NCBI RefSeq assembly: GCF_001909285.1
Contig: NZ_MRSV01000001.1
Span: forward strand, 1,599,680 to 1,663,679
Direction of reading: 5' to 3'
DNA: 64,000 bases
Origin: Exiguobacterium profundum
GTDB taxonomy: Bacteria; Bacillota; Bacilli; Exiguobacteriales; Exiguobacteriaceae
Below the pieces are notes generated by a model. It saw nothing but the letters and a program-made list of their open reading frames with translations. It was not told the DNA's origin and made no database searches. Shown here one piece after another: positions 19,741 through 23,495 of the stretch; the first letter of the stretch is position 1; every line of letters begins with the position of its first letter. Position numbers and translations under genes: made by a program.

Positions 19741-20625
19741 GTGACCATTCAACTCTATGTATGGGCAGCCTTTTTAGTAATCAGCGTTCTATTAGGGATT
19801 CGATTGAATCAATTAAAAGAGCCGGAAGCGAACTTTTTTCCAAAGTTCTTATTTTATTCACTGCTTGGAATCGTGTCTTTCCCCATCGGCGGTTTTCACA
19901 TTCCGATTGGCTTTCTATTGTCTTTTTTGTTCTTTCTGAAACAGAACAGCCGGTATAAATGGTATGGGGCACTGTTAGGGTTCTTCTTTTTTCTTTTTTT
20001 GCTTTTTGTCCCGTTATTCGATCAATCCGGGTTTCGTTCCGAATCGCAACAAATCGGCGCCGTTTCGGTCACGGATGAATCGTTTGATGACATGACTGAA
20101 AAGTTGTTACAACGAATCAATAGTGAATCGATTAAATTAGATCGTGGGAAACTACAGATTGACCGAGAAGGGAACGTTCAATCCATTGAGTACTTACTCA
20201 TGGTGGAACGAGCCGAATCGTTCCAACAGATCCGTGTAACATACGGCTCAGGACAACTTTCGTATGAACAAGTGGATGAATTACGTAAAGAATCTGGACA
20301 GGCCTTCTTTGAAAAGCTAGTCGAATTCGACCACATGCTGTCGACGTTACGAGGTCCTTCGTGGGAGGAGTATACTGACGTCGTTTCTGCCCCAGTGTTA
20401 CAACTTTCCTATGATGGACTGTATGACATGTATACGTTCGAAAACGAATCGATGCTCATGATTAATCGGGACAATGAACTGGTCAAGTTCTGGCTCCAGC
20501 GCGAACCGGTCCTCGCAAACAGCATCCAACTCGTCGGACTGACAAGGGAAGGACGGAGTTCAGGCGAACGTTTTGCGATACTATATAACTATTCGATACA
20601 TCAACGAGAGGATTTGACAGAATGA
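19741..20625 (+). CDS. Membrane protein with extracytoplasmic domain, unknown
   Basis: 294 aa, no family recognised. Three hydrophobic segments lie in the first 95 residues (including a Phe-rich GFFFFLFLLFVPLF), followed by about 200 polar residues likely outside the cell. The GTG start is one base after rnz, and its TGA overlaps the start of the DUF4430 lipoprotein gene (ATGA 20622-20625), so it is coupled to the ECF-like cluster. A role as an accessory subunit of that transporter is possible but not shown. Confidence 0.6.
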   Translation: MTIQLYVWAAFLVISVLLGIRLNQLKEPEANFFPKFLFYSLLGIVSFPIGGFHIPIGFLLSFLFFLKQNSRYKWYGALLGFFFFLFLLFVPLFDQSGFRSESQQIGAVSVTDESFDDMTEKLLQRINSESIKLDRGKLQIDREGNVQSIEYLLMVERAESFQQIRVTYGSGQLSYEQVDELRKESGQAFFEKLVEFDHMLSTLRGPSWEEYTDVVSAPVLQLSYDGLYDMYTFENESMLMINRDNELVKFWLQREPVLANSIQLVGLTREGRSSGERFAILYNYSIHQREDLTE

Positions 20626-21032
20626 TCAAACCGTATTTAAGTATTTCCCTATTAGCGACCGCACTTCTTGTCGGATGTGGCGGAGAAGAAACACAACAAG
20701 AGACCTGCGATGTAACTCCAACCATTTCCGTATACAATGCGGCGACGGAGGAGACGCTCTATCAAGAGAAGAGTGTTTGTCTTGAAGAGGATGCGACCGT
20801 GCTCGACGCATTAAAAGCGACAGGGCTTGATCTAGAAGTGACAGGAAGCGGAGACATGTCGTACGTGACGGCAATCGAAGGCATCGAAGAAAAATCAGAA
20901 GGACAATCGTCAGGCTGGGTATTTGCTTTTAATGGCGCGCCCGGAGATGAAGGGGCCGGTGCTAAAGAAGTAGAATCGACGGATGTCATTCAGTGGCGGT
21001 TTGAAGAAGATGCGATTGCTTTCTTCGAATGA
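20622..21032 (+). CDS. DUF4430 lipoprotein
   Basis: 136 aa. Signal peptide with lipobox LLVGC at about residue 19, then a single DUF4430 (transcobalamin-C-like) domain: VLDALKATGLDLEVT, YVTAIEGIEE, SSGWVFAFNG and VIQWRFEED. DUF4430 proteins often accompany ECF transporters and are suspected of binding cobalamin-like ligands, but the ligand here is unknown. It overlaps the preceding membrane gene by four bases and the EcfT frame downstream. Confidence 0.75.
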   Translation: MIKPYLSISLLATALLVGCGGEETQQETCDVTPTISVYNAATEETLYQEKSVCLEEDATVLDALKATGLDLEVTGSGDMSYVTAIEGIEEKSEGQSSGWVFAFNGAPGDEGAGAKEVESTDVIQWRFEEDAIAFFE

Positions 21033-21669
21033 GGCAGATTGGGAGCGGCGACATCCTGTCACGCTCCTTTTCTTTCTATTTAGTCATCTATTCATTCTGA
21101 CGTATATCCATGATGTCACAGTATTTGTCATCGGCCTTGTTCTTTTGCTCATGCTTGAACGTCGGTTTCCATGGACGATGCTCATCGTATTGATTGCGTT
21201 TGCTCTCGTCTCGGTCTTCCCTGCATTGTTTGGATGGGAGTTATCGCTCACTTACATATGGCGTCAGCTATTGAAGTTGGCTACTTTCTTACTTGGCATG
21301 CTGTGGATTTCTCGGATTGTTCGATTGGAACGATTGCTCCCACTTCTCTATAAATGGCCCCGTTCAACTTCCCTCTTGTACGGGGCGTGGGCACTTATTC
21401 CTTCGATGGAACGAGCGGTACGTCAGTCGCTCAGAAGTCACCCCAAAAAAGCGTGGCAAGAAGCAATCGAGATTGGCATTAATAGCCAAAGGCATGAGCC
21501 ACGATTTGCGGTCGAGCCGATGCGTCGATTCCGATTTGAGGATGTTCTCCAACTCTTTATGATTGGCTTGATTGGCTACGTATCACTCGAGTGGACCATC
21601 ATCCCATGGCTCATCTATCCATACGTCACAAAAGGAGGTGTTCGTGATGCAATGGCTTTCTACCGTTGA
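21010..21669 (+). CDS. ECF transporter transmembrane protein, EcfT-like
   Basis: About 219 aa if ATG 21010 is used; the frame is open from 20983 and no start has a good ribosome site, so translation may depend on coupling to the DUF4430 gene, which it overlaps. Several helices in the first 120 residues, then a coupling region with ERLLPLLYKWPRSTSLL and MERAVRQSLRSHPKKAWQEA, where EcfT proteins carry Ala-Arg-Ser/Gly motifs contacting the ATPases. The C-terminus has one more helix. Confidence 0.68.
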   Translation: MRLLSSNEADWERRHPVTLLFFLFSHLFILTYIHDVTVFVIGLVLLLMLERRFPWTMLIVLIAFALVSVFPALFGWELSLTYIWRQLLKLATFLLGMLWISRIVRLERLLPLLYKWPRSTSLLYGAWALIPSMERAVRQSLRSHPKKAWQEAIEIGINSQRHEPRFAVEPMRRFRFEDVLQLFMIGLIGYVSLEWTIIPWLIYPYVTKGGVRDAMAFYR

Positions 21670-22603
21670 CGGGTCGCTCGAGGCATATATCGAGCGGTAT
21701 CGTCCTCGAGTCATCAGAATGAATCAACCATTCTCAGGAAAAGTTGGTCATTTATTATCCCGTGTTGATTCGCTTCGGGGGGCGGAACTCGCCTCACTCT
21801 TACAAATCGATGCCCTGTATCCAAAAGCGTTTGACGCCTGTTCAAGCGGTGAGCAACAGATTGTACAAGTCGCTTATGCTCTATTAGATCAGCCCGAAGC
21901 AATTGTACTTATCGAACCGTTCCGCCACCTCGATCAATTCCGTAGAGAACATCTAGAGATGCTACTTCGTCGTACTTCCGGTCTCGGTGTTCGGATTGGT
22001 TATACGGAACGGGCGCAAGAATCGTCTGAAGACATGAAAATCACTTTCCGACAATCGGAGACGATACCAAGAATTGAAGCGACCGATGTATCCTATCGTC
22101 ATCCGCTTCAGGCGACTTATGCCATTGAAGAAGTGACGGTCCAAATGAATGAACCTGGCCTCACAGTCTGTATTGGGACGAACGGAAGTGGAAAATCGAC
22201 GTTGCTCGAACTTTTAGCAAGGAGCAGACGCCCTCTTCGTGGACGGGTGAAGCGGGGGGAGCGAGCTGCTTATCTTCCTGCCGAAACGGAATACGGTCCG
22301 TTTCCGAAAGAATCGAACCGGAGGATCGCTCAACTACAAGCCGTCCTGAACGACTCGGCAAGCGTCCTTTTGCTCGATGAACCGACGGTGGATTTAACGA
22401 ATGGGGAACGTACGGCGTTCCTTGAAGCGCTCTTGAAAAAGTCCGAATCAGCACGCGTGCTTTGTGCGACACATGATTTGGCGTTAGTCGACCAAGCGTC
22501 GGACGTGATTTACCTTGCGAGTGGTCGCGTGGTCTTTCAAGGAGAACGGTCACTCTTTCAAGAACGGAGTACGCTATGGTCACATACGTCCTCGCTATTC
22601 TGA
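21647..22603 (+). CDS. Fused, compacted double ABC ATPase (EcfA-like) with complementary degenerate halves
   Basis: 318 aa, against roughly 270 per domain for EcfA pairs. The ATG at 21647 follows AAAGGAGG by 8 bp. N half (1-135): a Q-loop-like RVIRMNQPF, a signature CSSGEQQIVQVAYALL (65-80) and a Walker B-like AIVLIEPFRHLD (85-96), but no Walker A at all. C half (140-318): Walker A GTNGSGKST (177-185), Walker B VLLLDEPTVDL (240-250) and switch His in CATHDLAL (276), but only about 55 residues between Walker A and B, with KES where LSGGQ should be. One composite ATP site could form from C-half Walker A and N-half signature. It overlaps the S component gene. Confidence 0.75.
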   Translation: MQWLSTVDGSLEAYIERYRPRVIRMNQPFSGKVGHLLSRVDSLRGAELASLLQIDALYPKAFDACSSGEQQIVQVAYALLDQPEAIVLIEPFRHLDQFRREHLEMLLRRTSGLGVRIGYTERAQESSEDMKITFRQSETIPRIEATDVSYRHPLQATYAIEEVTVQMNEPGLTVCIGTNGSGKSTLLELLARSRRPLRGRVKRGERAAYLPAETEYGPFPKESNRRIAQLQAVLNDSASVLLLDEPTVDLTNGERTAFLEALLKKSESARVLCATHDLALVDQASDVIYLASGRVVFQGERSLFQERSTLWSHTSSLF

Positions 22604-23121
22604 TTGCCATCCTGGTGCTGTATCGATTTGAGAAATCTGATCTCCCGGTTCAACCGCTCGTGCAGCTTTTGGCACTCGCAGTCATCGGTCGCTGGCTTTT
22701 CATGACGATTCCGAACGTACAACCGACGACAGCCATTTTGATGCTGACGGCACTATGTATTGGATTGAATGCTGCGGCGGTCCTTGCGCTTTTCGTACCC
22801 ATCTTGTCAGGTCTGTTGCTCGGGATCGGACCGTTCGTCTTCTATCAATTTTTAGGCTGGCTCCTTATCGTAACGCTCGTCAGCAGTTTTAGACCGTTAT
22901 GGATGAAGTCGAACATCCTTTTTCTTTTTTTTTGTTTTTTGTCCGGATTTATATATGGATGGACGACCAATCTAGCGTTCTTCGAAGTGATTGGAGCTGA
23001 TTTTTGGAAGCTACTTCTACTCAGCGTCCCGTTTGACTTGGCACATGGGCTATCGAACGTCGTTTTCCTCTTTTTAATCCGTCCCTTGTTCGAGCGCATA
23101 TTCCTTCGTCAACTCGGGTAA
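22576..23121 (+). CDS. ECF transporter S component (substrate-binding membrane protein)
   Basis: 181 aa, five to six predicted helices. GRWLFMTIPNVQPTTAILM near residue 38 and PFVFYQFLGWLLIV near 90 are typical of S components that capture a small vitamin-like ligand, and FDLAHGLSNVVFLFL sits near the C-terminus. The start overlaps the ATPase gene by 28 bp. Ligand unknown; the DUF4430 partner makes a corrinoid or similar compound a reasonable guess. Confidence 0.72.
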   Translation: MVTYVLAILIAILVLYRFEKSDLPVQPLVQLLALAVIGRWLFMTIPNVQPTTAILMLTALCIGLNAAAVLALFVPILSGLLLGIGPFVFYQFLGWLLIVTLVSSFRPLWMKSNILFLFFCFLSGFIYGWTTNLAFFEVIGADFWKLLLLSVPFDLAHGLSNVVFLFLIRPLFERIFLRQLG

Positions 23122-23162: not shown

Positions 23163-23495
23163 ATGGGTGCGTATATCAATCTCACAGAAGTCGGCATGTT
23201 TCTACTCGTAGGACTATTGTTTATCTTATTAAACCTGATTCTATTGGCAAAACGTTACACGAGAGCCCGTTTAGCCATGATCAGCATCCTTGCGGCGAGC
23301 GTGTGGCCAGCACTCATGATTGTGCTTTCCGTGGAACAACTGAGCATCATGGACCAGCTCACGTCAGGAGACCTGACGCTCGATGCCGTCATGGCGTGGG
23401 GAGTCGTCATCGCTACAGCGCTGATGACTATGATTCCGGCAGGTGTATTTCTACACCGGCTTGTGAACGTCTCTCGCTTACACTCTGAACCATAA
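23163..23495 (+). CDS. Small membrane protein, unknown
   Basis: 110 aa with three hydrophobic segments (about 9-28, 38-54, 78-98). No family recognised. The ATG at 23163 follows GTGAGG. It lies 41 bp after the S component with no terminator between, so it probably belongs to the same transcript, and it ends at a strong hairpin. Confidence 0.6.
   Translation: MGAYINLTEVGMFLLVGLLFILLNLILLAKRYTRARLAMISILAASVWPALMIVLSVEQLSIMDQLTSGDLTLDAVMAWGVVIATALMTMIPAGVFLHRLVNVSRLHSEP

Follow-up and report, generated by a model that had tools for sequence, protein, structure and literature searches.

A reduced double EcfA of Exiguobacterium profundum and its possible role as a one-site, one-arm ECF motor

Group II energy-coupling factor (ECF) modules, as known from the FolT2 and CbrT complexes of L. 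delbrueckii, combine EcfA, EcfA′ and EcfT with an S component. The cycle reported for the canonical module begins with closure of the ATPase pair by ATP, followed by movement of the coupling helices and expulsion of the S component, and hydrolysis then resets the module (PMC10368641). In the solved ECF module, EcfA receives CH2 in its groove and EcfA′ receives CH3; under turnover conditions ADP is found in EcfA′ and ATP in EcfA (PMC10368641). Both ATPases of the L. delbrueckii module are complete and both catalytic glutamates are required for growth on cobalamin uptake: each single Glu-to-Gln mutant is severely impaired in growth, and ATPase activity did not rise above background in those mutant motors that were assayed (PMC10368641). 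Since the single-Glu mutants are so severely defective, one site is insufficient in the group II module. The same source states the order of binding and hydrolysis at the two ATP sites as open (PMC10368641), and the X-R-X anchors are called essential for assembly and ATPase activity in a second report (PMC6828968). The site order is not resolved by point mutation of the canonical module, because each single catalytic mutant is already severely growth-defective.

In the degenerate-site ABC transporters CFTR and MRP1, the one consensus site is built from the Walker motifs of NBD2 and the signature of NBD1. Both NBDs are full-size in CFTR, MRP1, TM287/288 and BmrCD, and their degenerate site still binds ATP. 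The reduced double EcfA described here resembles these transporters in having one consensus site, its Q-loop Gln excepted, and one impaired site, with the parts contributed by opposite halves, but differs from them in that its second site is without a P-loop and without a signature. It also departs from the canonical EcfA/EcfA′ pair with its two complete NBDs, as each of its halves lacks part of the motif set in 38 of 38 sequences, while an EcfT-like fold and an S component are shared with the group II module.

The gene lies in a stretch of 64,000 nucleotides (the window) from a 2.9 Mb genome, and all features of the window given below are on the forward strand. The reduced EcfA is encoded at 21647–22603 (318 aa plus stop), starts with the ATG at 21647, 3′ of a AAAGGAGGT ribosome-binding site, and matches the ABC ATPase family in two stretches (Pfam PF00005, E=3.2e-13). 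The N half (residues 1–138; 21647–22060) is a remnant of NBD1, which keeps the signature motif CSSGEQQ (residues 65–71; 21839–21859) and the D-loop RHLD (residues 93–96; 21923–21934) and is without P-loop and H-loop His; in its Walker B-like segment IVLIEPF (residues 86–92) the Glu is retained and the Asp is gone. The C half (residues 139–318; 22061–22600) is a remnant of NBD2 without helical subdomain and signature. It contains the Walker A motif GTNGSGKST (residues 177–185; 22175–22201), the Walker B motif VLLLDEP with the catalytic Glu245 (residues 240–246; 22364–22384) and the H-loop His276 (in ATHD, residues 274–277; the His codon at 22472–22474), with 54 residues between Walker A and Walker B and with KES (residues 221–223) occupying the signature position. 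At residue 212 (22280–22282), where the Q-loop Gln of the NBD2 relatives aligns, an Ala is found. A first-pass annotation, made from the letters of the window, had given the frame, coordinates, length and start of this gene correctly, and had noted the missing Walker A of the N half and the KES of the C half.

The reduced EcfA occurs in each of the 37 family genomes of a first sample and in 38 of 38 in a sample of the class, which together cover two genera, the protein of the second genus being 31–34% identical to that of the window. The kept site is made up of residues that are invariant in all 38 sequences, namely G177, N179, G180, S181, G182, K183, T185 (seven of the nine Walker A residues), D244, E245, P246 and H276 from the C half, and S66, G68, E69, Q71, L95 and D96 from the N half. 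The positions of the lost site vary among the same sequences: a P-loop pattern occurs in none of the 38 N halves and in all 38 C halves, a signature-like pattern in none of the C halves (0/38), and no N half has a His at the aligned H-loop position 122 (0/38), while the Walker B Asp position of the N half is occupied by I, S, A, H, F or E. The split is imperfect in three respects. The C half has lost its Q-loop Gln (of the 38 sequences, 35 have Ala and three Pro), Glu90 of the N-half Walker B is retained in 36 of 38, and the D-loop Asp of the C half survives in 7 of 38. The proposal that the two halves are degenerate in complementary ways therefore holds as a conserved pattern, though it had overlooked the loss of the Q-loop Gln and of the D-loop Asp and the retention of Glu90. 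Position 152, the presumed A-loop, is a His in 19 sequences and a Tyr in the other 19. Furthermore, Glu47 is invariant in the 30 sequences aligned for structure prediction and, like Glu90, lies outside the kept ATP site; both glutamates may contact EcfT or the other half.

Outside the family, the reduced form was found in none of 360 other Bacilli and in none of 397 other genomes of a phylum sample (E<=1e-20, five candidates scored per genome; some genomes are common to the two samples). A profile scan of contigs gave no close relative among the matches listed for the best 80 of 155 relatives; the best of these had E 6e-11, and they were partial ABC matches with 22–61% identity. In the literature, a search of titles and abstract starts found no description of a reduced EcfA among the matches listed, and nothing was found on an energy-coupling factor in Exiguobacterium.

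The AlphaFold2 monomer of the reduced EcfA, built on the 30-sequence alignment (pLDDT 89.3, pTM 0.84), predicts one folded unit. When the model is compared with solved structures by VIA, all 50 matches listed align 298–309 of the 318 residues (Z 21.8–24.2, rmsd 3.4–4.4), with aligned ranges that take in the two NBDs of tandem or full ABC proteins, and the model superposes on the NBD pairs of MRP1 and CFTR. Among the 50 titles, 24 name a bound nucleotide or vanadate, two turnover conditions and one (8avy) an apo state, and the others give no state. As the model superposes on NBD pairs, the signature of the N half likely faces the Walker A of the C half, and nothing in the model suggests that the two motifs cannot meet, an outcome that the first-pass annotation had named as fatal to its reading.

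The origin of the reduced form can be traced through its S component, the profile of which matches 132 of 398 Bacilli genomes, 94 of them outside the family. Forty of these 94 S loci, hand-picked for spread over families, were sampled, and 22 of the 40 contain a full fused double EcfA. The fused gene is directly beside the S gene in 21 of the 22 loci, the T gene intervening in L076, and a DUF4430 match is present in 20 of the 22. The full proteins are 535–775 aa long by mechanical ORF calling, which may have placed some starts upstream of the true ones. Each of the 22 has two NBDs with an unimpaired Walker A, Walker B Asp-Glu and D-loop Asp; the signature is intact in NBD1 of 22 and in NBD2 of 21 (L100 has S-Y-G-E), and the H-loop His of NBD1 in 21 of 22. 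One full relative, that of L062, scores 305.5 bits to TIGR04520, for which the cut-off is 315, and passes the cut-off of TIGR01166 (cbiO). The orthologous operons of these Bacilli have their content, the S family and the order of the halves in common with the window operon, but differ in having two complete NBDs and an EcfT with both coupling helices.

Both halves of the reduced EcfA match the NBDs of the fused EcfA by profile, which establishes homology to EcfA ATPases. By profile score, the N half is nearer NBD1 in 27 of 30 sequences, nearer NBD2 in two and tied in one, although the margins are small, and the C half is nearer NBD2 in 30 of 30. In the hhalign alignment of the N half with NBD1 (E=8.4e-22), residue 44 onward aligns with residue 121 onward of the NBD1 fragment, while the C half aligns with NBD2 (E=2.7e-37) with a gap of 43 residues after the Q-loop, so that the approximately 43 deleted residues include the helical subdomain and the signature. 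The distance from Walker A to Walker B is 67–71 residues in the reduced EcfA (38/38) compared to 124–130 in NBD1 and 108–127 in NBD2 of the full forms. A half-by-half profile comparison had been proposed by the first-pass annotation, which had not foreseen that a full-length relative would be found. A circularly permuted origin, with the N half derived from NBD2, was considered because the SSGEQQ signature resembles that of NBD2, but is not favoured given the 27 of 30 N halves that are nearer NBD1, if by small margins. When the NBDs of L062 are compared with PDB sequences, NBD1 has EcfA2 as its top match and EcfA1 as the next four, and for NBD2 chains of ABC-F and ABCE proteins come first; NBD1 is tentatively taken to correspond to EcfA and NBD2 to EcfA′.

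The partner of the reduced EcfA is an EcfT-like protein of 219 aa (21010–21669), the gene of which overlaps the end of the DUF4430 gene and the start of the EcfA gene. The window protein has no match above cut-off in Pfam, CbiQ included, or in NCBIfam. Its AlphaFold2 model (pLDDT 81.5, pTM 0.71) is best matched in VIA by ECF or Cbi transporter chains, which fill eight of the nine best rows (Z 5.8–8.0, 177–190 residues) and were called EcfT/CbiQ by chain letter and length, and the remaining rows among the 50 listed cover at most 123 residues. Foldseek returned no match at E<=0.001, its best hit being an unrelated chain with E 0.34. The predicted fold is thus that of EcfT/CbiQ, albeit by a match of low absolute strength (VIA Z no higher than 8.0). 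By profile, the reduced EcfT aligns with the full EcfT with E=1.1e-5 and a probability of 82 (hhalign).

The reduced EcfT is 219–246 aa long in the family, compared to 286–330 aa in the fused-EcfA operons, and the difference includes the second coupling helix, of which the terminal RG[Y/F]G motif is found in 17 of 17 full EcfT and in 0 of 37 reduced EcfT. The remaining coupling helix (residues 117–144; 21358–21441) ends in an invariant Ser143-His144 in place of an X-R-X anchor, with Ser-His in 37 of 37 reduced EcfT, whereas many full forms have x-R-G; neither X-R-X anchor is therefore left. The 17 full EcfT were chosen from the 22 full-EcfA loci by position and length alone; that of L069 was excluded because it had been found with the help of the motif, and L080, L092, L095 and L100 gave none. 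The 37 reduced EcfT leave out that of genome G030 (L024/L199), on account of an in-frame stop. This gene (L199:1213–1902) carries a two-codon insertion with the stop, and the neighbouring A and S genes are open. As far as the alignments go, EcfT has thus been reduced too, by the loss of its second coupling helix, which is new relative to the first-pass annotation. If NBD1 corresponds to EcfA and NBD2 to EcfA′, the lost helix is the partner of the lost helical subdomain, and A and T would have been trimmed together on matching sides. Among the new observations, such a concerted loss of helix and subdomain speaks most strongly for a slimmed module that still works.

The cluster opens with a DUF4430 lipoprotein-like protein of 136 aa (20622–21032; PF14478, E=6.5e-15) and closes with an ECF S component of 181 aa (22576–23121) that starts inside the EcfA gene. 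This order, D-T-A-S, is found in 38 of 38 family genomes, and in the window the start of each gene overlaps the end of the preceding one. The S component of the window has no Pfam or NCBIfam match above cut-off, and is assigned to its fold family through a profile link to proteins of PF12822 and PF07155, the cut-offs of which are passed by four of five relatives tested. Together with the EcfT-like fold, this S component family bears out the ECF-like setting in which the gene had been placed by the first-pass annotation. The cluster is flanked by genes at 19741–20625 and 23163–23495, neither with a Pfam match above cut-off, and ORFs resembling both occur at the same places in six family loci, that of the window included. 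The other 18 of the 40 sampled S loci (among L061–L100) are without a full double EcfA, and 16 of these 18 have a DUF4430 match; S loci without a double EcfA of their own are presumably served by a shared ECF module.

The cargo is probably cobalamin or another corrinoid. No known riboswitch is present in the window operon. Thirteen of the 40 sampled loci outside the family were scanned for riboswitches, and a cobalamin riboswitch precedes the cluster in five of these (L061, L062, L066, L077 and L083); only L062 is among the six scanned loci with a full double EcfA. In addition, each of the 38 family genomes encodes one protein with a B12-binding domain, which suggests a corrinoid need in the family. 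In the genome of the window, this protein (L203:674–1537) appears by eye to be a MerR-type regulator joined to that domain, presumably of the CarH kind.

With a probability of roughly 0.6, the reduced EcfA is the motor of a miniaturised and dedicated (group I-like) ECF importer, probably for a corrinoid, that has one site and one arm. A fused double EcfA would have lost the ATP-holding part of NBD1, plus the helical subdomain and signature of NBD2, and the two remnants would fold back on one another as a pseudo-dimer with a single catalytic site, for which the C half would supply Walker A, Walker B, the Glu and the H-loop and the N half the signature and D-loop. EcfT would have dropped its second coupling helix, the one that binds to the second ATPase in full ECF modules; it is from this loss that we infer a module that is one-armed as well as one-site. 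ATP binding would close the pseudo-dimer and push the single coupling helix, this helix would expel or topple the S component, and hydrolysis would reset the module. If NBD2 corresponds to EcfA′, the kept site would, tentatively and by analogy, be the counterpart of the EcfA′ site. The invariance of the catalytic residues argues that the protein still hydrolyses ATP. As the canonical module needs both catalytic glutamates, a one-site module must close and open differently, and the missing Q-loop Gln and the loss of both X-R-X anchors speak against it. Further points against this reading are the other EcfA/EcfT modules of the genome, the small margins by which the N half is assigned to NBD1, the in-frame stop in the EcfT gene of G030, the weak EcfT fold match and, for the cargo, the lack of a riboswitch in the window operon. 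The one hybrid ATP site postulated by the first-pass annotation is accordingly strengthened by the complementary degeneracy, its conservation in 38 of 38 sequences and the selection described below, and weakened by the absent Q-loop Gln, while its minimal ECF-like motor has gained an ECF-type operon and a second reduction, in EcfT, that was not foreseen. That a natural ECF importer works with just one composite ATP site and one coupling helix is, in our judgement, about as likely as not. If it does, two-site hydrolysis and crossed coupling helices are not universal requirements for toppling of the S component, and an EcfA′-like site with an EcfA-like signature would suffice. As a pair of ABC ATPases, the reduced EcfA would, moreover, be unusually small. 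A lineage from which, by sequence, one site and one arm have been deleted would allow a single nucleotide, arm and S component to be studied in a naturally simplified system.

The large deletions relative to the full fused EcfA could also be those of a decaying, frameshifted or deleted pseudogene. This is contradicted by a single uninterrupted frame of 310–321 aa in every one of the 38 genomes, which represent two genera, and by median dN/dS values of 0.09, 0.11 and 0.09 in three sets of close genomes (NG86; one of 51 EcfA pairs was unusable, and the set medians of dS are 0.6 to 1.6). In the same sets, the medians are 0.085–0.10 for the S component and 0.13–0.135 for EcfT. A dN/dS of about 0.1 indicates a functional protein, and both a pseudogene, which the first-pass annotation had named as a possible refutation, and a sequencing artefact are ruled out for practical purposes. 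In the search of the class sample, one or two stop codons were present in the matched stretch of 17 of the 38 genomes, which are taken as terminal because that stretch extends beyond the end of the frame. The genome encodes a complete EcfA1-EcfA2-EcfT set (G000:C1:563685–566052) and a second fused EcfA/EcfT pair (1779778–1781735), so that the S component of the window could borrow a motor. The first-pass annotation had held that its reading would fail if a separate full EcfA were required for the same S component; a full EcfA is indeed present in the genome. In such an arrangement, the canonical EcfA1A2T would drive the S component, and the reduced A and T would together serve in docking, sensing or regulation, with ATP still being bound or slowly hydrolysed. 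The 18 of 40 S loci of other Bacilli that are without a full double EcfA fit this reading, as do the missing Q-loop Gln and X-R-X anchors. On the other hand, Glu245, His276, the signature and the D-loop are invariant in 38 of 38 sequences, which is beyond the needs of nucleotide binding alone, and synteny with T and S is kept in 38 of 38. We regard a canonical motor as unlikely, though it is the foremost of the alternatives.

The motifs alone do not separate pairing within one molecule from pairing between two, and approximately 22 residues join the last strand of the N half (116–120) to the first strand of the C half (143–150). Two copies of the reduced EcfA could accordingly pair head to tail, each N half completing the site of the other copy's C half, and four half-domains would then make up a motor with two sites. 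In the monomer model, however, the two halves are already paired (pTM 0.84) and superpose on solved NBD pairs, and the single remaining coupling helix of EcfT suits one pseudo-dimer better, which makes the head-to-tail arrangement less likely still than a canonical motor. Pairing of the reduced EcfA with a canonical EcfA subunit would draw on the EcfA1 and EcfA2 that the genome encodes, but the protein has a complementary half of its own, and with such a partner the N half would have no function left, despite its invariant signature and D-loop; we consider this decidedly improbable, and only the pseudogene more so. The one-site, one-arm motor remains our preferred reading.

The second ECF cluster of the genome (G000:C1:1779000–1782500) encodes, besides the fused double EcfA, a CbiQ-type EcfT that has LRG and ARG as its two xRG motifs and a membrane protein that looks by eye like an S component, and thus provides an intact comparison within the same genome.
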